Shown here: piece after piece, positions 46,450 to 60,537 of the stretch
Layout: each line of letters opens with the position of its first letter
Position numbering within the stretch: the stretch's first letter is position 1
Origin: Clostridia bacterium
Lineage (GTDB): Bacteria; Bacillota; Clostridia; Oscillospirales; CAG-272
NCBI GenBank assembly: GCA_017451485.1
Contig: JAFTOG010000008.1
Location: 1 to 64,000 of the forward strand
Length of the DNA stretch: 64,000 nt
Direction: 5' to 3'
Translations under genes and position numbers: made by a program
Notes under the pieces: generated by a model
What the model was told of the DNA's origin: nothing
The model's input: only the letters and a program-made list of their open reading frames with translations
The model's database searches: none

Positions 46450-47109
<660 letters not shown>

Positions 47110-47578: not shown

Positions 47579-48271
47579 CTAGTCCTCTACAACTTCCATG
47601 CTTTCTATGATTTTTTCTATTTCAGAAAGTTCAATGGTGTTTGGAAGTTTCATCTTAAATATATATCCATTATTGGACCATACAAAATAGTAACTACAGC
47701 TTTTCTCCATATAGTATACATCACATAACTCCATATTAATTTGTGTATATTCTACGGATTTATTATGTAAAAATGCTTGATAGTTTTCCTCCAATATAGT
47801 TTGTTCCAGTCGAATAAACTCATTATTATTATTTTTCCAAGTTGTAACTGATAATGTCCCATAATTAGTTGTCTTTTGAATATGAAATTCATCAATTTCA
47901 CAAGAGGGCAAATATACTTTTTCAATTGTTTCCGGAGGCTTTGCACCTTCATCTTCTTCTACAAAAATACTTATAAAACTTTCATAAGTATTTACAATAA
48001 ATTTAACAACAGGCTCTCTTATAGAAGATATACTCATTATAAGTGTAAGAGTTATCAATATAGCAGCTAATACACCTACTAATCTTTTAGGGATAAACCT
48101 ATTTGCATTACGGGTGTATTTTTTATGTTTGTTTAGTAACTTCTGTATTTCTATTTTGTATTTTTCAGAAAATACAACTTTTTCGTCCGGGAGGGCATCT
48201 ATGACTGCCATTTCTGCAAGCTCTTCTTCAAGCAAAGCTTCTTTTAAAAGTTTTATTTGATTATTAGTCAT
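47579..48271 (-). CDS. Anti-sigma factor-like membrane protein with DUF4367-like domain
   Basis: This 230-aa protein has a cytoplasmic N-terminal part (about 1-62), one membrane helix (about 63-83; LVGVLAAILITLTLIMSI) and an outer domain whose end (YTQINMELCDVYYM, YYFVWSNNGYIFKMKLP, IEKIIESM) resembles the DUF4367 group. Its start overlaps the end of the ECF sigma gene by 8 bases, as is usual for sigma/anti-sigma pairs. It probably holds the sigma factor inactive. Confidence 0.8.
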   Translation of the reverse strand: MTNNQIKLLKEALLEEELAEMAVIDALPDEKVVFSEKYKIEIQKLLNKHKKYTRNANRFIPKRLVGVLAAILITLTLIMSISSIREPVVKFIVNTYESFISIFVEEDEGAKPPETIEKVYLPSCEIDEFHIQKTTNYGTLSVTTWKNNNNEFIRLEQTILEENYQAFLHNKSVEYTQINMELCDVYYMEKSCSYYFVWSNNGYIFKMKLPNTIELSEIEKIIESMEVVED

Positions 48272-48803
48272 AGTCTTCCTCCTTAAATTTTTCTTTTAAT
48301 ATTTCCACAGCCCTGTTGAAGCGGGCATTTGCAGTAGATTTTGGAATATTAAGAATTTCAGCAATTTCTCTGAAGTTCATATTATCTTGAAAATATAAAG
48401 ACAGAATACTCTTGTATTTTGTATCCATACCCTTTATGTATTTTTTTATTCTCGCAAGCTTGTCTAAATCAATATATTCTTCTAACAAATCATCATTAGA
48501 GGAATTGTCCATATATTCAATATTACTACGGTTTTTAATATTTTTGTTTATCACAAGAATAGATGCATGTTTAGTTAGACGGTAAATATATATCTTAAGT
48601 AAATCTTTAGAAAGAGGTTTTAATTTTTCTATGTAAATAGCAATATTTTTAAATGCAATTTGGGAAGCATCTTCCGCATAATGATGGTCTTTTATGTAGT
48701 ATTTAGCCACTTTGAATACGTAATTTTTGTATTCATAATATATTTTTTCAAATAAGTCCGTATCGTTGGGATCAAAAATTAATGATAAATATAGCTCTAA
48801 CAT
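48264..48803 (-). CDS. ECF-type RNA polymerase sigma factor
   Basis: This 179-aa protein has sigma-70 region 2 (FEKIYYEYKNYVFKVAKYYI, then AEDASQIAF) and region 4 (LSLYFQDNMNFREIAEIL, IPKSTANARFNRAVEIL). It reads away from the peptide locus, but a shared unusual leader motif (48907-48945 and 61648-61684) in front of two exported-protein genes could be its target. It is paired with the anti-sigma gene. Confidence 0.88.
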   Translation of the reverse strand: MLELYLSLIFDPNDTDLFEKIYYEYKNYVFKVAKYYIKDHHYAEDASQIAFKNIAIYIEKLKPLSKDLLKIYIYRLTKHASILVINKNIKNRSNIEYMDNSSNDDLLEEYIDLDKLARIKKYIKGMDTKYKSILSLYFQDNMNFREIAEILNIPKSTANARFNRAVEILKEKFKEEDYD

Positions 48804-49448: not shown

Positions 49449-51041
49449 ATGACTGATTCTATATCAATTGCTTTTTTTGATAATGAAAGTTTTCTTCACA
49501 ATTTATATATCGGTTATGGTATCTCATCACTAAAACGAATATTTGAAAATATTAAATCAACCTATATCAACGAGAAAAACTACCAATCCGTTTCAAGTCA
49601 GATAGACTCTAAGTACGTTTTAGTGTATCTATCTGAAAATAAATATTCCTTGTTTAATAAATTTATTGAATGTATAAGTGATGATATTGTTTTGATTGCT
49701 TGTCACTATGTTCCAACAATGTTTGGAAAAGAAATAATGGAGTCTAATAAAAGAATTAATTACGTGTTATTTGGTGAAATCGATCAAACATTAGAGGAAT
49801 TCTTTAACTGTTTAATTAACAAAGAACCTTTATCCAAATGCAAAGGTGTTTTCTCAAGAGACGGTGATAAAATTTTATTTAGTGGCAAGAGAGAACTAAT
49901 TACAGATTTAGATGATATAAACTTTCCGGATAGAGATTTATTTGGTAAAAATAGAGGTATATTTCATGTCATCGCATCTAGAGGATGCGACGGAGCTTGT
50001 ACTTTTTGTGATAGAAATTATTTATATAAGCTTGTTTGTCAAAAGCAACGATTCAGAAGTATAAATAATGTTATATCAGAAGTGGATTATTTAGTTGATA
50101 ACTATAATTGCAAATTTATTAATTTTGCAGATTCTACTTTTTGTAATGATTCTAACTTAGAGGAAAGGCTACTCGAACTTTATGAAAAATTATTATGTAA
50201 GCCATATTGGGTTCAGTTCTTTATAAATTTAAGAATTGAACATATAAGTGACAAAACATTAGAAATTTTAAACAAGTTGAAAACAGTTGGCTTGGGAAGA
50301 GTTTTTATAGGCATTGAAAGTTTTAGCGACAAGGACTTACATTTATACAACAAGCAAACAAGCAGCAAAATAATATTAAACTCATTGAACAAGATAAATT
50401 CTCTAAGTACCGTGATGGATGATTTTCAATTGGATTTTGAGTATGGTTTTATTATGTTTAATCCTTATACAACGGTTAGTGATTTAAAAATGAATTTAAA
50501 GATGTTAGAAGAAAATAATATTTTTTTAAATCCGAATATGATGTTGAGCCGACTTGTTTGCAGTAGTTTTACACCTATAACAAAGAAGATAGACTCAGAT
50601 AATTTGTTGAATGATCCGTATCATCATATGAATTTGTTAGAGAAAACATCATCTGATATAAAATATAAGTTCAAACATAAAGAAACAGCTAAGATATTTG
50701 ATGCGTTTCTGATGTGTAAAAATCAACTATCAATCGTTATTCCGAGTAATATAGTCTACATAAGAAATAGATATTACAAATATTTTGGAAGAGACATCTA
50801 TTTAAATAGGTTGGATGATGCATATTTGGAATGGGAAGAAACAGTTTCAAAATTTTGTTATGATATTTGCAGAAAAATTATTGAAATGGAGTCAGCTGGG
50901 AATTCATCTATGCAAGTGGTAAATGATGAATGTGCTACTTTTAAAAACGTTTTAAACAACTTAAACGGAAAATTAAATACAACAAAAAATAGAGTAATGA
51001 TTCAACTGCAAAAAATAAATCAAATCATTTATGACAAATAA
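49449..51041 (+). CDS. B12-type radical SAM enzyme (530 aa)
   Basis: Residues about 1-130 look like a cobalamin-binding fold. The radical SAM site follows as Cys180, Cys184 and Cys187 (SRGCDGACTFCDRN). Then come ADSTFCND, RVFIGIESF and a long helical C-terminus ending in coiled coil. Enzymes of this class methylate unreactive carbons or make other radical changes, often on peptides. B12 binding is inferred from layout; the usual DxHxxG motif is not evident, so cobalamin may not bind. AAAAGGAG precedes the start. It overlaps the next gene by 11 bases. Confidence 0.8.
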   Translation: MTDSISIAFFDNESFLHNLYIGYGISSLKRIFENIKSTYINEKNYQSVSSQIDSKYVLVYLSENKYSLFNKFIECISDDIVLIACHYVPTMFGKEIMESNKRINYVLFGEIDQTLEEFFNCLINKEPLSKCKGVFSRDGDKILFSGKRELITDLDDINFPDRDLFGKNRGIFHVIASRGCDGACTFCDRNYLYKLVCQKQRFRSINNVISEVDYLVDNYNCKFINFADSTFCNDSNLEERLLELYEKLLCKPYWVQFFINLRIEHISDKTLEILNKLKTVGLGRVFIGIESFSDKDLHLYNKQTSSKIILNSLNKINSLSTVMDDFQLDFEYGFIMFNPYTTVSDLKMNLKMLEENNIFLNPNMMLSRLVCSSFTPITKKIDSDNLLNDPYHHMNLLEKTSSDIKYKFKHKETAKIFDAFLMCKNQLSIVIPSNIVYIRNRYYKYFGRDIYLNRLDDAYLEWEETVSKFCYDICRKIIEMESAGNSSMQVVNDECATFKNVLNNLNGKLNTTKNRVMIQLQKINQIIYDK

Positions 51042-51831
51042 GAAAATAAATAAGCAATTTTTAAAACAATTAAAGTTTTATTCGAACTACGAGACTGATA
51101 AACGCAATCATATAATAAAACCTTTAAAATTTACTTGCGAGGATAACAAAGAGTATTATGCAGAATTTAGGGTCAAATACAAATTAGATAGATTTATAAA
51201 TGCTAATGATGATGAAGATACCGTAAAAAAAATTCTGAGATGGACATATGAAATACTTTTGCATTCGACGTATTATGAAAATACTATAAACTATAAAAGT
51301 TCAATTGATATTATTGAATTCTCCAGAGCGAACAAGCTATGCTTGAACTGCTACTGTCATTCGTATGTGTTAAAGGATGCGTTATGTAGTGTTGGAATTA
51401 CTGCGAGATTAGTTTATTGTATGCCAATAAATGGTGATTATTATGGAAATCACGTAATAGTTGAGTATTACAGTAAGAATCACCAAAAATGGATTTTTGT
51501 TGATCCCACTTATAATGTACTATTTACTAATAAAAGAGGCGTTCCCGTTAGTCTTTTAGAATTTAGAGAAAATATTATAAAAAACAGAAAAAATCTCATT
51601 GTAATCAATAACAGAATACAACCTTTTTCCAGTGAAATAAAGAGAAGAGAATTGTATCGTGGTTATTGTGAAGATATTATCCCTTTATTAGTAATGTTAC
51701 AGTACGAGAGAATAACTGAAGAAAGTGAGGTGGAGTATATAAGACTGGTTGCGGTAAATTACTGCATTAAAAATAAAGAGAAAAAAATAGATAATTACAT
51801 TTATACTTCTTTGACAGGTCTTCTATACTAA
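51031..51831 (+). CDS. Transglutaminase-like protein
   Basis: This 266-aa protein has a transglutaminase core with Cys109 (CYCHSYVLKDAL), His141 (GNHVIVEYY) and Asp158 (WIFVDPTYN) in the correct order and spacing. GITARLVYC is the usual strand after the Cys helix. It could crosslink, hydrolyse or transfer at peptide amide bonds in the RiPP pathway. No signal peptide is seen, so it acts in the cytoplasm. It overlaps the preceding gene, which indicates joint expression. Confidence 0.82.
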   Translation: MTNKKINKQFLKQLKFYSNYETDKRNHIIKPLKFTCEDNKEYYAEFRVKYKLDRFINANDDEDTVKKILRWTYEILLHSTYYENTINYKSSIDIIEFSRANKLCLNCYCHSYVLKDALCSVGITARLVYCMPINGDYYGNHVIVEYYSKNHQKWIFVDPTYNVLFTNKRGVPVSLLEFRENIIKNRKNLIVINNRIQPFSSEIKRRELYRGYCEDIIPLLVMLQYERITEESEVEYIRLVAVNYCIKNKEKKIDNYIYTSLTGLLY

Positions 51832-51838
51832 AAATCAA

Positions 51839-53185
51839 ATGACAAAATATAAGACATCTCAGTTTAATTATATTCTGAGTAACGGTTCAGATGAATTAAG
51901 ATTGTACAATTCTTTAAAAGGAAAAAACAGTTTATTAATTATAAAAAACGATAAAATCAAAAAGTTTTATAGAATACAAGAAAACTGTAATTTAGATGAG
52001 TGGGAAAAAGATGAGGATTTTTTGAAATTAAAAAAGTTGGGGTACTTTGTAGAAAGCGAAACTGATGAATTAATGTTAGCTAATCTAAAGAAAAATGATG
52101 TTATCAATTATCCCGGATTGGTCTTGACAATAATGCCAACTGAAGATTGCAATTTTAGATGCCAATATTGTTATGAAGATCATAAAAAAGGAAAAATGTC
52201 CAAGAAAGTACAGGATTCAATTGTTAAATTTGTTAGAAAAAATATCAATAATTATACCGCTTTAAATATAGGGTGGTTTGGAGGAGAGCCTTTGGAGGCA
52301 CTGGATGTTGTAGAAAACATTTCCAGAAGATTAATACAAGTATGTAAAGTAGCTAGAAAACCATATGCTGCCGGGATGACGACAAATGGTTATGATTTGA
52401 CTTTGGATACATTTATTAAATTGCTAAATTTAAAAATATATGAATATCAAATTACAATTGACGGATTAAAAAGCACTCATGATAAGTATAGGTATTTAAA
52501 AGATTTTTCCGGTTCATTTGATCGTATAATCGAGAATATTAAGGAAATATCATCTATTAAACAAAATCGCTTTAAAGTAGTAATAAGAACAAATTTTACA
52601 AAAGATATTATAAATAACATTAAAGAATATTTAGAGTTTTGTGAAAAACTATTCGGTTCTGATGACAGATTCTCTCTTTCTGCTCATTTGGTTGAAAATT
52701 GGGGAGGAGAAAGCATAGATAAATTGGAAGATCAACTTGTAGGTGGTAATAATTACGGGAATTTAATAAAGAAAATTTTACAAATAAAACCAAAAATCAG
52801 TTTTGAATCTCATTTGATAGATTTGGATTCTTATAATGCTAAGTGTTATGCAGCTTTAAGAAATTCTTATGTAATAGGCTCTGATGGACTTGTCTATAAG
52901 TGTACAGAGGATTTTAATCTTCCGGAAAACTGTATAGGTTATTTAAGTGATGAGGGAGATTTAGTGATTGATCAATCTAAAAATGCGAAATGGGTTGATA
53001 TGGAAAGTTTAAAAGAAGAAAAATGTTCATATTGCGTATATAGAGGTTGTTGTTTAGACGGACCATGTCCTAAAGTAAAAATTTTAGCAGAAAAGGAAAA
53101 AGGTTATAATTCTTGTCCGAGAACTAAACATAGCATACATGATATTATGATGTTAATCAATGAACGGTTTTATGAAATACTATGA
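51839..53185 (+). CDS. Radical SAM/SPASM peptide maturase
   Basis: This 448-aa protein has an N-terminal region (about 1-85) like the wing-type recognition part of many maturases, then the radical SAM site Cys104, Cys108, Cys111 (CNFRCQYCYEDH), GWFGGEPLEA and TTNGYDL, and a SPASM end with many cysteines (KCTED, CSYCVYRGCCLDGPCP, CP). SPASM enzymes hold extra Fe-S clusters and make thioether or C-C links in RiPPs. The order next to an ACP-like gene and a Cys-rich peptide fits the 'CcpM'-type maturases of Clo7bot systems, from memory. No clear ribosome site precedes the start; coupling to the previous gene is likely. Confidence 0.9.
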   Translation: MTKYKTSQFNYILSNGSDELRLYNSLKGKNSLLIIKNDKIKKFYRIQENCNLDEWEKDEDFLKLKKLGYFVESETDELMLANLKKNDVINYPGLVLTIMPTEDCNFRCQYCYEDHKKGKMSKKVQDSIVKFVRKNINNYTALNIGWFGGEPLEALDVVENISRRLIQVCKVARKPYAAGMTTNGYDLTLDTFIKLLNLKIYEYQITIDGLKSTHDKYRYLKDFSGSFDRIIENIKEISSIKQNRFKVVIRTNFTKDIINNIKEYLEFCEKLFGSDDRFSLSAHLVENWGGESIDKLEDQLVGGNNYGNLIKKILQIKPKISFESHLIDLDSYNAKCYAALRNSYVIGSDGLVYKCTEDFNLPENCIGYLSDEGDLVIDQSKNAKWVDMESLKEEKCSYCVYRGCCLDGPCPKVKILAEKEKGYNSCPRTKHSIHDIMMLINERFYEIL

Positions 53186-53208: not shown

Positions 53209-53436
53209 ATGAAATATAGAGATCAAGTTGTTCAGGTCTTGGAAGAAATGGGTATTTTAATAGAAAGTGATGAATATGATGTAAATTTGCAAGATTTTAT
53301 TGTTGATTCAATACAATTTATTACTTTTATTGTAAATGTTGAGGAAAAATTGAATTTAACTTTTCCGGACGAATATCTAAATTATGATAACATAGAAACC
53401 TTACATAAATTTTGTGAGATATTGGAAAATATATAA
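53209..53436 (+). CDS. Acyl-carrier-like protein
   Basis: This 75-aa protein has an ACP fold signature: FIVDSIQFITFIVNVEEKL, with Ser34 of the DS motif available for a phosphopantetheine arm, and an acidic helix end. It belongs to the small carrier-like proteins of peptide maturation loci rather than fatty acid synthesis, judged from its neighbours. Its role is unknown; it may carry an acyl or aminoacyl group, or serve as a partner. GTAAGAGG lies upstream. Confidence 0.85.
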   Translation: MKYRDQVVQVLEEMGILIESDEYDVNLQDFIVDSIQFITFIVNVEEKLNLTFPDEYLNYDNIETLHKFCEILENI

Positions 53437-53484
53437 TGGTTGTGGCAAGCTTATTACCAATACTTAAGAGAGGAGGATGTTCTG

Positions 53485-53625
53485 ATGAAGGAAACAAAAA
53501 AACTTTTTAAAAAAACCAACTGTAAAGTTGATACTAAAAAAGTAAGGTTGTACAATGCCCCTGAAGGAAACAACTGCAAATGTAATAATAAAAAAGATAA
53601 CTGCAGTTGTGGATACTCCAACTAA
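53485..53625 (+). CDS. Cysteine-rich RiPP precursor peptide (46 aa)
   Basis: The ATG at 53485 has GGAGG eight bases upstream (53472-53476); the longer frame from 53440 has no ribosome site. The leader (about residues 1-28) is Lys-rich and carries one Cys (Cys13). The core is NNCKCNNKKDNCSCGYSN, with Cys31, Cys33, Cys40 and Cys42 in a CxC-x6-CxC pattern. It lies between the maturase/ACP genes and two exporters, exactly where a substrate belongs. No double-glycine site is seen; cutting may occur at or near APEG. Function could be antimicrobial or metal related; this is inference. Confidence 0.82.
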   Translation: MKETKKLFKKTNCKVDTKKVRLYNAPEGNNCKCNNKKDNCSCGYSN

Positions 53626-53702: not shown

Positions 53703-55478
53703 ATGAAAAAAATAATAAAATCTTTTGAATATTCGTATAAATGTATTTCATTCATGTGGAAAAAGAGCAAAGGATATTTTTTACTTACAATTATAAGTAT
53801 TATTGTAAATTCTATACAAGCATTTCCGGGAATGTATTTAGTTAGTTATTCTATTGATCTTTTGACAAACAAGGTTGATTTTAATAAATATTTAAGAATT
53901 ATAGGATTTATAGTTGGTTTGATGCTATTAACATCTATTCTTTCGATGTTAATAAACAGTATTTTGGAATATTCCAAGAAAAAATTTTATACAAAAATAA
54001 GACAGGATATAAATTATATTTGTTTACATACAGATTATGAAAAAATACAAAGCAAGTCTTTCATAGAAGAGAAGGATTTCGCTTTAAGTGCACTAAATAA
54101 TGATAGTTTAGAATTGTATATACAAAGTGTAAAAACACTAATAAGTAGTATTATCGTAATTGCGGGAACTTTGTATATTATATCATTTGCATCTCTGTTT
54201 ATTTTAATTCCTCTGGCTATAACTATTATTCTTATATCTTACAATAGTTACTTGAATTGTATTCAAAACTATGTTGAAACAAAGGAAGAAATAGAATATG
54301 GGAAGAAATCTACTTATCTACAAAGTATAAGTAGGGACTTTTCTTATGCTAAAGAAATAAGAGCTTTCGATCTTAAGGATAAATTCAAAAAAAGAATGGA
54401 CGAGGTAGCTGAGCTTTTATTAAGGATAAAAGAAAATCGCAGAAAAAAGAGAAGACCATCCAATTTTCTTGTGTATTCTGCGGAAGCAATATTGCAGATA
54501 GCAATATATTTATATTTCGGATATAAGGTTTTTGCTTCAATTATTACGTTAGGTCAATTTTCTTTATATTCAAATGCAGTTGAAAAATTAAAAAGCTCTC
54601 TTGAAAATATTATGTTTGTAGTTACTGAATTTATGGTTAATACAGAGTATGTTCAAGGCTTTTTTAATTTTATGAAAACTAATGTTAGAACATTAAAACA
54701 TGATAAAATGGATATATCTTCGGCAAAAATAGAGTTCAAAGGCGTAAGTTATAAATATCCTAAAGCTGAAACATATGCATTAAAGGACGTAAATTTAAGT
54801 ATAGATGCAGGAGAAACTCTTTTAATTGTTGGAGAGAATGGAGCAGGAAAAAGTACATTTATAAAATTGCTATGCGGATTGTACAAGCCTACAGAAGGCA
54901 GAATTTTGATTAACGGTATAGATATATCGACAATAGATTCAAAAGAGTATGTAAAAAATATATCTGCCGTATTTCAAGATTATAAACTTTTTGCATTATC
55001 CATAGCAGATAACATTGATGCATTGAAAGATTTTAATAGCAGCAAGATGGATAAATCTCTTGAGCAAGTAAACCTTTTAGAAAAGGTAAGGTTGTCAAAT
55101 GGGGTAGATACACAGCTATATCGGATATTTGATGAAAATGGTTGTGAGTTTTCAGGTGGCGAGATGCAAAGACTTGCCATTGCAAGGGCAATATACAAGG
55201 ATGCTCCGATTTTAGTATTAGACGAACCAACATCCGCTCTGGATCCTAAGGTTGAGTATGAAATATATAATAGTTTTAAGCAAATGTCAGAAAACCGTAC
55301 AGCAGTATACATATCTCACAGATTATCAAGTATTAAATTCTCAGATAAGATAGCAGTATTTGACAAAGGCGAAATTGTAGAGTACGGAACGCATGATGAT
55401 CTTATTGCAAAAAAAGGAATATATGAGGAATTATATTCTATTCAGGCAAGCCTTTATCATAGGGAGGAGCAGCAATGA
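53703..55478 (+). CDS. ABC exporter, half-transporter 1
   Basis: This 591-aa protein has six membrane helices (about residues 20-310) and a nucleotide-binding domain with Walker A GENGAGKST, signature FSGGEMQRLAIARA and Walker B ILVLDEPTSALDP. It lacks a C39 peptidase domain. The start at 53703 has GAGGTG upstream. With the next gene, which overlaps by 4 bases, it probably forms a heterodimer that exports the mature peptide. Confidence 0.9.
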   Translation: MKKIIKSFEYSYKCISFMWKKSKGYFLLTIISIIVNSIQAFPGMYLVSYSIDLLTNKVDFNKYLRIIGFIVGLMLLTSILSMLINSILEYSKKKFYTKIRQDINYICLHTDYEKIQSKSFIEEKDFALSALNNDSLELYIQSVKTLISSIIVIAGTLYIISFASLFILIPLAITIILISYNSYLNCIQNYVETKEEIEYGKKSTYLQSISRDFSYAKEIRAFDLKDKFKKRMDEVAELLLRIKENRRKKRRPSNFLVYSAEAILQIAIYLYFGYKVFASIITLGQFSLYSNAVEKLKSSLENIMFVVTEFMVNTEYVQGFFNFMKTNVRTLKHDKMDISSAKIEFKGVSYKYPKAETYALKDVNLSIDAGETLLIVGENGAGKSTFIKLLCGLYKPTEGRILINGIDISTIDSKEYVKNISAVFQDYKLFALSIADNIDALKDFNSSKMDKSLEQVNLLEKVRLSNGVDTQLYRIFDENGCEFSGGEMQRLAIARAIYKDAPILVLDEPTSALDPKVEYEIYNSFKQMSENRTAVYISHRLSSIKFSDKIAVFDKGEIVEYGTHDDLIAKKGIYEELYSIQASLYHREEQQ

Positions 55479-57262
55479 AAAAAATAAAAGATCTTTTTAA
55501 GGCATTCGGTCAATTACCAAGATTATTTGGGTTAGTATTTAGAACCGATAAAAAGTATCTTGTTTATATGATTTGTGAAACCATTTGTTTTGCGTTATTA
55601 CCTTATCCAACTATGTTTTTGGCAAAATACTCACTTGATGCACTGGAAAAGAAAATATCATATACAGAGTTTGCAGTTGTATGTACGTCACTTATTTTGT
55701 TGCAATTTTCTATTTCAATGTTGAAGTCTCTTTTTAACAGTATACGTCCCGGCAGAACATCATATGTAGTTGGTAAATTAAATAACGATTTCCATAAAAA
55801 AAGCATGGAAATCGATTATGAGCTGCTTGCTGAGAAAAAAACGCAGGAGCTACAAGCATATGCTGGAGATTTTATAAAATGGAAATTAAATAATACTGTT
55901 TGGAATTTTATCTCCCTTTTTTCAAGTTTAATTTCATTTTTAATATCTTGTGTAATTTTGTTGAATATCAATGTGTTTATTATATTTATAATTGCAGCAG
56001 TTATGTGCTTGGATGCTCTTTTTGCGATGATATTTTCAAAGCCTCAATTTAAGATAAATAAAAAAATCATCCAAAATGATAGATATATAAATTATTATAA
56101 TGACGTTTCGGTAAGTGAAAATGCAGCCAAGGATATCAGAATATTTGATATGAGTGGTGGCATACAAGCAAAAGCGGAATCATACTATAAAAGCAATTTG
56201 AAATTAGAAAAGAAAAAAAGATTTTTTGCCATTATACAAGAACTATTCAATTATCTTATTTCACACTCAATGGATTTTGCCGTTTATGTGCTTCTTGGAG
56301 TATATGTATTGAAAAGTGAATTATCTCTTGGAGAAATGTCCCTTGCAATAGGTAATATTGTAACTTTTCGTCAATATTTTAAAAAAGTATCTTCCACTCT
56401 TGTTGGATATTCTGACACTGCAAAATATGTTGAATATTATGACTCATTTATGTCATTAGAAAGTAAATTCAGAAAAACAGGACAAGAAAATCTTATATTA
56501 AATAAAACAGACAAATTTACAATAGAATTTAGAAATGTATCATTTCGTTATCCCGGTCAAGAAGAATATGTGCTTAGGAATTTTAATGTAATTATTAATA
56601 ATAATGAAAAAATATCTATAATAGGTGAAAATGGTGCTGGAAAAAGTACTTTTATAAAGTTACTTATGCGTCTTTATGACCCAACAGACGGTGAAATTTT
56701 ATTTAACGGTACAAATATTAAAAATTTCGACTATGATCAATACTTATCTATTTTTACTCCTGTTTTTCAAGATTTTAAATTGTTTGCTTTCACTTTAGAG
56801 GAAAATATATCCTCTTTTAAATGTGATGACTCTGATAAGGTTATAGATGCTGCCGGCAAAGCAGGAATAGCTGAATATATAGAAGATTTACCCGATAAAT
56901 ATAATACATTTATCTCAAAAAGATTTTGCGAAGGTGGAGTGGATTTTTCCGGGGGAGAACAACAAAAAATTGCAATTGCCAGAGCGTATTTTAAAGATAA
57001 CTCTGCGATTACAATACTTGATGAGCCGACAAGTGCATTAGATCCAAAAGCAGAGTATCAAATATACAAGGAGTTTAATGATTTGATAGGAGATAATACA
57101 GCATTTTTTATTTCTCATCGTTTAGCAAGTTCAAAATTCTGTGATAAGATTATGGTTATAAAAGACAAGAAACTTTTTGAATATGGTACACATAAAGAAC
57201 TAATAGCTAAAGATGGATATTATAGTGAATTATATAATATGCAATCTAGTTATTATGAATAA
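55475..57262 (+). CDS. ABC exporter, half-transporter 2
   Basis: This 595-aa protein has six membrane helices and a complete nucleotide-binding domain: Walker A GENGAGKST, signature FSGGEQQKIAIARA and Walker B ITILDEPTSALDP. It also lacks a C39 domain. The ATGA overlap with the first half-transporter and similar length support a heterodimer. Confidence 0.9.
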   Translation: MKKIKDLFKAFGQLPRLFGLVFRTDKKYLVYMICETICFALLPYPTMFLAKYSLDALEKKISYTEFAVVCTSLILLQFSISMLKSLFNSIRPGRTSYVVGKLNNDFHKKSMEIDYELLAEKKTQELQAYAGDFIKWKLNNTVWNFISLFSSLISFLISCVILLNINVFIIFIIAAVMCLDALFAMIFSKPQFKINKKIIQNDRYINYYNDVSVSENAAKDIRIFDMSGGIQAKAESYYKSNLKLEKKKRFFAIIQELFNYLISHSMDFAVYVLLGVYVLKSELSLGEMSLAIGNIVTFRQYFKKVSSTLVGYSDTAKYVEYYDSFMSLESKFRKTGQENLILNKTDKFTIEFRNVSFRYPGQEEYVLRNFNVIINNNEKISIIGENGAGKSTFIKLLMRLYDPTDGEILFNGTNIKNFDYDQYLSIFTPVFQDFKLFAFTLEENISSFKCDDSDKVIDAAGKAGIAEYIEDLPDKYNTFISKRFCEGGVDFSGGEQQKIAIARAYFKDNSAITILDEPTSALDPKAEYQIYKEFNDLIGDNTAFFISHRLASSKFCDKIMVIKDKKLFEYGTHKELIAKDGYYSELYNMQSSYYE

Positions 57263-57268
57263 AATAGT

Positions 57269-59107
57269 ATGGAAAAATATGATTGTGTAATTATTGATAG
57301 TGGTGTAGATTCATCTCATCCTAAGTTACAGACATGTAAATTAGAAGGTATGTCTTTTTTTCTTGAGAATGGTGTAGTTCGTATAGCAAAAGAGGATTTT
57401 AAAGATAAAATAGGGCATGGAACTGCTATATTTGGAATTATCAGTTCAAATTGTCCAAAAGACACTAGTATATACAACATATCTATTTTTAATGATAGTG
57501 ATTCAGTAGACGAGGAATTGTTATATTCCGCTTTAGAATATGTTTATAAAAATATAAAATGCAAAGTTGTTAATATTAGTATGGGTATAAAAACCTGTGA
57601 TCAGTTGGAACGTTTAAATAATATTTGTGAAAAATTTAACCGTAAAAACGTAATGCTTGTTTCGGCATTTGATAATGATGGTTCAATGTCATATCCTGCA
57701 TGTTTAGAAAATGTAATAGGTATAGACGCATCATCTGAGTATTACAACATTACAGAATTTGAGTACGTGCATGGAAGAGAAATTAATTTTCGAGCTAAAG
57801 GTGGAATACAGAAGGTATTATGGACTAGTCCTAAATATGCAATTGTTCAAGGAAGTAGTTTTGCTTGTGCTTATATGACTAGTAATATTTTAAATGTTTT
57901 AGAAAGGCATCCCAATTATAATAAAAATGATGTAATAGAATATTTAAAAACGAGGTCAAAAAATACAATAGAATCTTCAGATGCTGTACAGGAGAATGAA
58001 GTCAATAATTTTTTTAATCCTGAAAAAGTATTAATTTTTCCATTCAACAAAGAAATGCATAGCTTAGTAGCTTTTAATGATTTGTGTAATTTTACTATAT
58101 CAAAAATTTGTGATATTCGAATGTCAAGCAATATTAATAAACGCATAGGAAGTTTGCTACAATATTCTAACGATTCAATTATAAATGATATGATAATTGA
58201 GAATATAGATAGTGTTGTATGGGATGAAACATTTGATACTGTTATACTGGGACATGTTGAACTATTAAATCAATTAACCAAGAGAGACATTACAACAGAA
58301 ATAATAGAAAAATGTAAGTTTTATCATAAAAATTTAATATGTATGGATGATTTATCAAAGTATAAGGAAGAAATAAATTCATTGGTACAAAGTAACTGTA
58401 AAGTATATTATTTATGTAACTCGACAGTAGGTATATCTAATCAATTTGGGAAATTATATCTTACTAACAGACCGGTAGTCTGTGTCGCAGGAACCAATAG
58501 AAGTCAAGGCAAGTACACTTTACAATTGTTATTGAGACGACATCTACTTGAACTAGGTTATTCTGTTGGCCAGTTAGGTACTGAACCAACATCATTGCTT
58601 TTTGGTATGGATGAAGTCTTTCATTATGGTTATTCTGTTATAAATACTTCATATTTTGAACAAACTGTTTTACGTGTAAATAGATTAATGAAAAGAATAT
58701 CCGACAAAAACCCGGATATTATTCTCACAGGTGTTCAATCAGGTACAGTCCCATATATTTATGACAACTTGCAATATTTAACAAACAGGCAATTTGAAGT
58801 TTTAATGGGTATAATTCCGGATATTGTTGTGTTATGTATTAACCCTTTTGATGATGTTGATTATATTGAAAGGAGTATAAAAGCGTTAGAGAGCATGGTG
58901 AATACCCGTGTAATTGCTTGCGTTTTATATCCTATGAAATTTAGCGATAATTTTTCCACTTACAGTAAAAAAGAAAAAATAACAAATGTTGAAGAATTTA
59001 ATCTTAAAACTGAATTATACAGAGCATTAAATATTCCGATTTTTTCTTTTGGAAAAGATGATGTAAGCGAGTTGACAGAATTAATTATTAATTATTTTTC
59101 AAGTTAG
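57269..59107 (+). CDS. Subtilase fused to a P-loop (DUF1611-like) domain
   Basis: Residues about 1-235 form a compact S8 serine protease with Asp10 (IIDSGVD), His50 (GHGTAIF), Asn136 (oxyanion site, SAFDNDG) and Ser197 (GSSFACA). There is no signal or propeptide, so it acts in the cytoplasm. Residues about 250-395 are of unknown fold. From residue 402 a P-loop domain follows with VVCVAGTNRSQGKYT (loop 407-416), GQLGTEPTSLLFG and GVQSG, like DUF1611-type NTPases. It may cut the leader from the modified peptide, driven or gated by nucleotide. From memory, similar proteins occur in Clo7bot loci (TIGR04066 type). Confidence 0.82.
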   Translation: MEKYDCVIIDSGVDSSHPKLQTCKLEGMSFFLENGVVRIAKEDFKDKIGHGTAIFGIISSNCPKDTSIYNISIFNDSDSVDEELLYSALEYVYKNIKCKVVNISMGIKTCDQLERLNNICEKFNRKNVMLVSAFDNDGSMSYPACLENVIGIDASSEYYNITEFEYVHGREINFRAKGGIQKVLWTSPKYAIVQGSSFACAYMTSNILNVLERHPNYNKNDVIEYLKTRSKNTIESSDAVQENEVNNFFNPEKVLIFPFNKEMHSLVAFNDLCNFTISKICDIRMSSNINKRIGSLLQYSNDSIINDMIIENIDSVVWDETFDTVILGHVELLNQLTKRDITTEIIEKCKFYHKNLICMDDLSKYKEEINSLVQSNCKVYYLCNSTVGISNQFGKLYLTNRPVVCVAGTNRSQGKYTLQLLLRRHLLELGYSVGQLGTEPTSLLFGMDEVFHYGYSVINTSYFEQTVLRVNRLMKRISDKNPDIILTGVQSGTVPYIYDNLQYLTNRQFEVLMGIIPDIVVLCINPFDDVDYIERSIKALESMVNTRVIACVLYPMKFSDNFSTYSKKEKITNVEEFNLKTELYRALNIPIFSFGKDDVSELTELIINYFSS

Positions 59108-59196: not shown

Positions 59197-60162
59197 ATGA
59201 AATTGCCATTTGAAAAAAATCCATATATTGTAACATATCATAATAAAGCCTTCCCTTTAGGAGTAATACAAGGAAACTCTAAATTTGATTTAACGCCTTG
59301 GATTGCTGGAAAGTTTATCAATTGTTTTTTTGATGAATCTTCTGCTAATCATAAATTCAATTTTTATACTTTTGATTCATGGGGTGAAAAGGATGGGGTG
59401 AATTCTTCTCAAACGATACGGCTTGACAAGAAAATGTTTAAGGAACTTTCTATTGATATCATAAAAACAGTTAAGTGTTTATTGGATAATGGATACTATG
59501 TACATGGTTCTTATAATGAAAAATATATTAAAGAAAAGAAGTCTTACGAAAAATATGATTATATGCATGATTATATTTTAATCGGTTATGAGGAAGATGG
59601 AATCCTATATTCAGTAGGATATACCAAATATGATAGATATGAGGAGTTTACTATTTCTTTCGATGAGTATTTGAACTCTTTAATAAATTCAACTAATGCA
59701 TACATTGATATTAACACATGTAAATATCATGAGGAAGGAAATTTTTCATTTAATAAATCTGGATTTATTCAAGAGCTTTCGGATTATTTGAGTTCAAACA
59801 TACCTTTTTCAGCATATGCTAACAAGATATATGGATTAAAAGCAATGGAAGCATTAAAAGATTTTGTAATTTCAAATGATTTTAAAATTGATGTTAGATA
59901 CATAAGAGCTTTCATGGAACATAAGATATTAATGCAATTGCGGATTTCATATGTTTATCAGACTAACAGTAGTGAAATTGTTGATAAATATAAAAAGGTT
60001 AGTGATGAAGCTGGGAAAATATATTTATTAAGTCTTAAATTTAATATTACAAAAAACAAACAAATTTTGAAAACCATTGAAAATGGGTTTAACTTGATTT
60101 TACAGATAGAAAGGCAATTATTACCATTAGTAATTAAAGATATGGAAAGTTTTAATACATAG
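59197..60162 (+). CDS. BtrH/C39-like protein of the peptide locus
   Basis: This 321-aa protein starts at ATG 59197 behind AAGGAG; the frame's earlier TTG is weaker. Residues about 1-165 resemble the butirosin BtrH N-terminal (papain-like) group: DYILIGYEEDGILYSVGYTKYDRYEEFTIS-type text is typical. I cannot locate a sure catalytic Cys, so it may be a scaffold or acyl-transfer protein. BtrH passes acyl groups from ACP to substrate; a carrier-like protein is encoded in the same locus, which fits. The C-terminal half is helical. The family call is tentative. Confidence 0.55.
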   Translation: MKLPFEKNPYIVTYHNKAFPLGVIQGNSKFDLTPWIAGKFINCFFDESSANHKFNFYTFDSWGEKDGVNSSQTIRLDKKMFKELSIDIIKTVKCLLDNGYYVHGSYNEKYIKEKKSYEKYDYMHDYILIGYEEDGILYSVGYTKYDRYEEFTISFDEYLNSLINSTNAYIDINTCKYHEEGNFSFNKSGFIQELSDYLSSNIPFSAYANKIYGLKAMEALKDFVISNDFKIDVRYIRAFMEHKILMQLRISYVYQTNSSEIVDKYKKVSDEAGKIYLLSLKFNITKNKQILKTIENGFNLILQIERQLLPLVIKDMESFNT

Positions 60163-60228: not shown

Positions 60229-60537
60229 ATGTATGATATAGATTATTTCAAACTTTTTATAAAAGAAGCCTTAACTAATTGTAAAGATGGTGATTTAAAA
60301 CAGGTTTTAATGATTTACAGAAACTTGTTTTTAAATTTTAAAAAAGAAAATTTTCATGATTATTGTATAGAAAAATATGGTGAATATAAGGCTATATGTA
60401 TAATAGAAATATTAAAAATATTATCAATTGATTATGTTTTAATAAACGATAGTTTCGCAAATACGCAAGAAATAAATACTGACAAAGTGAATAATCTAAG
60501 GGAAGCACTGGAAACATTAAATCTTTTAGTGGGATAA
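60229..60537 (+). CDS. Hypothetical helical protein (102 aa)
   Basis: The frame begins MYDIDYFKLFIKEALTNCK with AGGAGA upstream. It is helical and has no signal peptide. I do not recognise it. It ends the AT-rich peptide locus, 66 bases behind the BtrH-like gene, and may be an immunity or accessory factor; that is only a guess from position. Confidence 0.6.
   Translation: MYDIDYFKLFIKEALTNCKDGDLKQVLMIYRNLFLNFKKENFHDYCIEKYGEYKAICIIEILKILSIDYVLINDSFANTQEINTDKVNNLREALETLNLLVG

Follow-up and report, generated by a model that had tools for sequence, protein, structure and literature searches.

A probable ribosomal peptide precursor in an operon combining a radical SAM maturase, an acyl carrier protein and a subtilase fusion

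A 46-aa open reading frame (ORF) with a Lys-rich leader and two CxC pairs is found near a radical SAM gene on contig JAFTOG010000008.1 of a Clostridia bacterium (GCA_017451485.1), raising the question of whether it encodes the precursor of a ribosomally synthesized, post-translationally modified peptide (RiPP) and, if so, what its neighbors would do to it. We analyzed the first 64,000 nucleotides of the contig, hereafter the window, following up an earlier note that had described the peptide and its five Cys from the DNA letters. Translation of 53485-53625 (+) confirms 46 residues with Cys at positions 13, 31, 33, 40, and 42 (gaps in the core of 1, 6, and 1), and the ORF is part of a same-strand run comprising the following features.

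49449-51041, +, B12-type radical SAM protein (BchE/RiPP C-methyltransferase superfamily), probable tailoring enzyme (PF04055, 4e-12)
51031-51831, +, transglutaminase-like protein with an intact Cys111-His145-Asp162 triad (PF01841, 1.1e-5)
51839-53185, +, radical SAM/SPASM peptide maturase, CNFRCQYC motif and C-terminal auxiliary-cluster Cys conserved
53209-53436, +, acyl carrier protein (ACP) with phosphopantetheine-site Ser (VDSIQF; PF00550, 27.3 bits)
53471-53476, +, Shine-Dalgarno AGGAGG for the precursor, read in the sequence 8 nt upstream of the ATG
53485-53625, +, precursor peptide ORF, 46 aa, ATG start, MKETKKLFKKTNCKVDTKKVRLYNAPEGNNCKCNNKKDNCSCGYSN
53485-53553, +, predicted leader M1-Y23 (...KVRLY), boundary placed from the precursor family alignment
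53554-53622, +, predicted core NAPEGNNCKCNNKKDNCSCGYSN with conserved Glu27 and C31-x-C33 (EGNNCxC in common with locus L077, E...NCNC with locus L094)
53703-55478, +, ABC exporter half 1, permease-ATPase (PF00005)
55475-57262, +, ABC exporter half 2, permease-ATPase (PF00005, PF00664)
57269-59107, +, subtilase (residues 3-237, QhpE-like) fused to a TIGR04066/DUF1611-DgcN-like domain (residues 242-609, P-loop; model m41baedbcb897)
59197-60162, +, CcbD/CtaG/AziU3-fold (BtrH_N-related) protein without the catalytic Cys, His124 kept
60229-60537, +, 102-aa protein at the operon end, membership uncertain, no significant family matches

A TTG at 53440 would give a longer frame, but the ATG is the likelier start because leader conservation sets in there. 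The CxC-x6-CxC motif taken alone is weak evidence and not significant, since a six-frame search of the window finds it at two further places (18661 + and 29328 -, besides 53575 +), and promoter and terminator scans returned matches at chance level only. Comparative evidence is decisive. Of 1,046 small ORFs in the window, this one comes first when scored with a leader profile derived exclusively from the peptides of other loci, its E value of only 0.37 being attributable to a penalty on the Lys-rich composition, and the ORF is placed between the ACP and the ABC exporter pair (53703-57262), where homologous loci encode peptides with the same leader. This rank and this shared position put the ORF above chance, and it almost certainly encodes a RiPP precursor as judged by sequence comparison.

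Scanning species genomes with a subtilase alignment returned 106 relatives, from which 80 loci were kept; co-occurrence counts refer to a set of 82 nonduplicate subtilase/TIGR04066 loci. Culturable relatives such as Paenibacillus phocaensis, Anaerocolumna, and Tumebacillus are among the sources of these loci. A SPASM radical SAM maturase is present in 59 of these 82, and all 59 also have an ACP. Between the ACP and the next gene lie small ORFs with a common leader, approximately MKKxLxK(P/K)...VxLYxxE, followed by a Cys core, and collection by leader pattern and inspection gave 82 such ORFs in 57 loci. The window peptide belongs to the precursor family thus defined (leader pattern then Cys, encoded beside the ACP gene of an operon with radical SAM and subtilase-TIGR04066 genes). 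Family peptides range in length from 24 to 77 aa and have between 1 and 10 Cys beyond residue 18; in 77 of the 82, the LY-type Tyr is followed within five residues by Glu or Asp. ORFs combining leader pattern and ribosome site number 69 on the operon strand (54 loci) versus 2 on the opposite strand. The earlier note's proposal of a precursor that accompanies the maturase, with a leader rich in Lys and a core sparse in Cys, therefore holds across about 57 homologous loci, which carry a peptide of the same type and leader and not a different, better conserved one. Curated NCBIfam precursor models all recognize the family poorly: TIGR04065 does not match the window peptide and weakly matches 4 of 43 relatives (best 8.5e-4), and the relatives' peptides include three weak matches to the elgicin lantibiotic model and one to the KIS RiPP model.

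Core Cys patterns differ widely across the family. Some cores have adjacent CC, others a single Cys (GESNYKCS in L088, GEGNNKCS in L124, and also L079), and the L134 precursor (MKKLVKPMKEKMNFALYNENNCWC) is only 24 aa long. With cores carrying 1 to 10 Cys and CxC present in only 15 of 57 loci, paired CxC is not a family rule in the peptides compared here. The motif is commoner beside a transglutaminase-like gene (7/13 versus 8/44 loci, Fisher p = 0.027, not corrected for relatedness). In a maximum-likelihood tree of 59 maturases, the window maturase groups with those of L094 and L077 (support 96/98). All three loci have a transglutaminase-like gene directly before the maturase, and all three peptides (MKVLKKPAKQVRKNVSLYHSEGNNCRC in L077 and MKKLTKKVRKARKVRLYGMEGGTNYGNCNCVAGC in L094) have Glu, Gly, and then N-C-x-C, ending in EGNNCRC (L077) and EGGTNYGNCNCVAGC (L094). 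By alignment, the first CxC of the window peptide (C31-K-C33) with its EGNN context is shared with these sister loci, and the second CxC and the x6 spacing are its own. The paired CxC core noted earlier thus stands in its first half, and its second half and spacing are not conserved. Two other precursors encoded beside maturases of the same family (L047:11796-12116 and L121:4180-4338) have Cys at every fifth residue (DCWSGVCYSSGCYSKGC), a CefA-like pattern.

The maturase and the subtilase fusion occur together in other genomes of the same family. A maturase match was found in none of 20 genomes of the same genus, which fits horizontal acquisition, and the maturase as sole query gave no match against genome contigs. 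Radical SAM matches are present in viral contigs; the subtilase alone as query matched no viral contig. Relatives of the 102-aa protein were seen in none of the other loci. Several Gemmatimonadota and Latescibacterota loci (L127, L129-L133, L136) encode the subtilase-DUF1611 fusion with an ACP-like and often a CcbD-like protein and without a detected SPASM radical SAM gene of the maturase's family. Operons of the same makeup, again with no such SPASM gene detected, occur in three Paenibacillus loci (L104, L119, L120). As these still encode same-leader peptides (e.g., MKKLVKKVSEKKTLVSFYYCENTGTCSGR), the maturase may be dispensable for part of the pathway.

Genes for a LytTR-type response regulator and a sensor kinase lie upstream of this operon type in five loci (L058:5070-7880, L068:4023-6905, L107:2618-5495, L109:4388-6519, L077:3627-5767), with an AgrB-like gene, recognized by eye from its sequence, also upstream in L058, L068, and L107. 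This gene content suggests that the RiPP is under peptide quorum-sensing control in these five strains. In the window, the region just upstream of the operon (47579-48803, -) contains, in divergent orientation, a gene resembling those of ECF-type sigma factors and, after it, one for a membrane protein that is probably the anti-sigma factor. A serine recombinase/resolvase-like gene (46495-47109, +) lies about 2.5 kb before the operon.

The window maturase keeps the CxxxCxxC motif and the Cys of a C-terminal auxiliary cluster, and it scores below the cut-off of every curated family tried: TIGR04463 (203.9 bits, cut-off 525, the best NCBIfam model), CefB NF038107 (167.2 bits, cut-off 600; the 1, 6, 1 gaps also break the rule of Cys at every fifth residue), Clo7bot TIGR04334 (162.6 bits, cut-off 600), the PapB family of ranthipeptides (126.6 bits, cut-off 340), and CcpM TIGR04068 (87.7 bits, cut-off 500), which places it outside CLI_3235/CcpM. 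Clo7bot, the frame in which the earlier note had viewed the peptide, is rejected on this score and on gene content, as ACP, subtilase, and CcbD-like genes are all missing from three Clo7bot-like loci with high scores. All 59 homologous maturases match the Clo7bot and TIGR04463/CefB models, and their best E-values suggest that they too are subthreshold. Since no precursor model recognizes the peptides well and the window maturase scores far under all of the curated cut-offs, annotation pipelines would overlook the precursors and give the enzymes wrong names.

We predict that the Lys-rich leader, which ends in VxLY, is bound by the SPASM enzyme and that this enzyme introduces Cys-derived thioether cross-links into the core. 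Its main target is likely the E-G...N-C-x-C segment, where Glu27 and the residues next to Cys31 and Cys33 are the first candidates for linkage. The nearest solved structure to the maturase family is 5wgg (E 1e-37), the structure of CteB, the SCIFF thioether maturase, and PapB/SCIFF models match the maturase below cut-off, so thioethers are the probable outcome. The B12-type enzyme, whose 3' end overlaps the next ORF, scores 64 bits with the NCBIfam BchE model and 50 bits with the TIGR03975 RiPP C-methyltransferase model, all below cut-off, and relatives of it occur in 5 other loci. Thirteen loci of this operon type (L043:6399-7331, L057:7012-8055, L092:6881-7888, L094:8803-9843, and nine others) have a second radical SAM gene, which is shorter and in several cases includes SPASM, and many products may therefore carry two radical SAM modifications.

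The subtilase domain resembles subtilisin in its model (Z 23), its catalytic residues D10, H50, and S197 are invariant in nine homologs, and it is homologous to QhpE while scoring below that family's cut-off (NF049966, 111.8 bits, E 2.8e-32, cut-off 165). By analogy with QhpE, it very probably removes the leader, which would be cut in the cytoplasm near LY..E. The fused C-terminal domain aligns with DUF1611 structure 2g0t (Z 28.7, rmsd 2.9, 313 residues) and with the N-acetyltransferase DgcN 7xrj (Z 23.8, rmsd 3.5, 306 residues), and with a PF07755 match (2.8e-9) it has the DUF1611 P-loop fold, with Lys415 as the P-loop Lys. The fusion is homologous to TIGR04066 over the full 361-position model at 89.9 bits, which is under the cut-off of 200 for membership. 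The two ABC proteins would export the product.

Three further proteins are suggestive of acyl chemistry. The ACP exceeds the PF00550 gathering cut-off of 20.8 bits and is a member of that family. The model of the 59197 protein (m4099d8bdbb12, pLDDT 94) has the full-length fold of CcbD, AziU3/U2, and CtaG (Z 16-18; CcbD at Z 18.4, rmsd 3.7, 292 residues; CtaG at Z about 16, rmsd 4.2-4.4, about 279 residues), with the next unrelated rows near Z 10. BtrH_N matches 13 of 39 members of this CcbD-like family and His124 is kept in 36 of the 39, but no Cys is conserved around residue 15, the place expected for the nucleophile (as estimated from the ranges aligned), so the CcbD/CtaG/BtrH type of acyltransferase is represented by its fold and not by its nucleophile. 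In the proposed route to closthioamide, carrier proteins, CtaG, and a transglutaminase act together (PMC6772006), which makes the combination with the transglutaminase-like protein suggestive. We put forward only tentatively that the holo-ACP is loaded with an acyl or aminoacyl group and that the peptide receives this group. The transfer could fall to the DgcN-like domain in a "cut and cap" reaction, which would cap the N-terminus created by cleavage, located at the conserved Glu or close to it. Alternatively, the transglutaminase-like enzyme could make the transfer together with the CcbD/CtaG-fold protein, in the manner of off-line thiotemplated pathways. DgcN uses glutamate as a substrate, and together with the conserved Glu at the core start this suggests, as a hypothesis only, N-terminal capping after cleavage.

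On balance we favor the account as a whole, namely a radical SAM RiPP with thioethers, a subtilase-cut leader, ACP-dependent acyl tailoring, and ABC export. Its most specific form, a thiotemplated RiPP in which the cross-linked Cys peptide is cut and N-capped by the bifunctional subtilase/DgcN-like protein with an acyl group from the dedicated holo-ACP, is a possibility we regard with some doubt. Counted against the best explanation are the missing catalytic Cys of the CcbD-like protein, the variable Cys patterns, the same-leader operons that lack a SPASM radical SAM gene, and the failure to find a recurrent ACP-loading enzyme in the operons. The first and last of these would be expected if the ACP, CcbD-like, and DgcN-like proteins were docking or chaperone parts only, remnants of a degenerate thiotemplate module that adds no acyl group to a plain thioether peptide. 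Consistent with such a role, the alignment of ACP-like proteins from CcpM-type loci (L050, L051, L052, L054, L056) has Ala, Pro, or Gly in place of the Ser; since TIGR04066 is kept there, the DgcN-like domain may not need acyl-ACP. In the operon type studied here, however, the phosphopantetheine Ser is kept in 68 of 68 aligned ACP homologs, the transglutaminase triad is invariant in all 14 proteins encoded beside the same operon type, and the DgcN-like domain shows no variation at key positions of its P-loop, which leaves docking alone a rather doubtful reading as well.

Two other readings concern the peptide itself. CxC pairs are common metal ligands, and their recurrence in 15 of the 57 loci would suit an iron- or copper-binding or disulfide peptide on which the radical SAM enzyme makes a nonthioether change such as a C-C link or an epimerization. 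Cores with one Cys or with adjacent CC cannot share this design, the second CxC is not conserved in the sister loci, and the closest solved maturase relative, 5wgg, is a thioether enzyme, making this reading improbable and disfavoring, as a family function, the metal binding raised in the earlier note. Were the ORF instead a chance Cys-rich frame and the true substrate another peptide, the two further motif occurrences and the modest leader profile score would be unsurprising, but position, ribosome site, and leader all match the precursors of homologous operons, sister maturases have E..NCxC peptides beside them, and no better candidate small frame was seen in the window, so that a chance frame is very improbable.

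The association of a holo-ACP, a CcbD/CtaG-fold protein, a transglutaminase-like protein, and a protease-acyltransferase-like fusion with a radical SAM RiPP raises the testable question of whether carrier proteins tailor ribosomal peptides, and minimal substrates of down to 24 aa offer easy access to the chemistry. If the thiotemplated RiPP reading is true, ribosomal peptides in Bacillota, Spirochaetota, and further phyla would be linked to carrier-protein chemistry. The pathway is widespread in bacteria and apparently unnamed: a literature search of partial coverage, mostly outside subscription journals and bioRxiv, found nothing uniting the parts of the operon, nor linking BtrH or DUF1611 with RiPPs. 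The Flm/Ohk arginase pathways (PMC12703449) were judged unrelated.

Four known systems share parts of this organization. Clo7bot and TIGR04463/CefB provide the radical SAM/SPASM models closest to the window maturase, whereas the three Clo7bot-like loci mentioned above are also without TIGR04066 and transglutaminase-like genes. The closthioamide and celesticetin pathways (CtaG, CtaJ, CcbD) likewise bring together a carrier protein, a CcbD/CtaG-fold protein, and a transglutaminase-like protein (PMC6772006) but act on small nonribosomal molecules, in contrast to the ribosomal precursor of the window operon, whose CcbD-like protein is without the catalytic Cys. In the Qhp pathway of quinohemoprotein amine dehydrogenase (QhpC-QhpD-QhpE-QhpF), the radical SAM maturase QhpD makes Cys-to-Asp/Glu thioethers, after which the dedicated subtilase QhpE removes the leader and the subunit is exported by an ABC protein (PMC7876137), a similar succession of activities; the substrate there is an enzyme subunit instead of a 46-aa peptide, and the subtilase of the window is fused to a DUF1611/DgcN-like domain. 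The CLI_3235/CcpM systems (TIGR04065, TIGR04068, TIGR04066, TIGR04069) are the nearest relatives in logic, with a short Lys-rich leader ending in VxAY or LEAY before the Cys core (MRKLGKKIGVAKNTVQAY... in L050 and MKQLVKRTNANYETLEAY... in L051, each then followed by Cys), a radical SAM/SPASM maturase, a TIGR04066 protein, an ACP-like protein and, in L051, a separate subtilase and an ABC exporter nearby. The window members pass none of the curated cut-offs of those families and differ in having subtilase and TIGR04066 in one protein, an ACP with its Ser, and additional CcbD/CtaG-fold and transglutaminase-like proteins.
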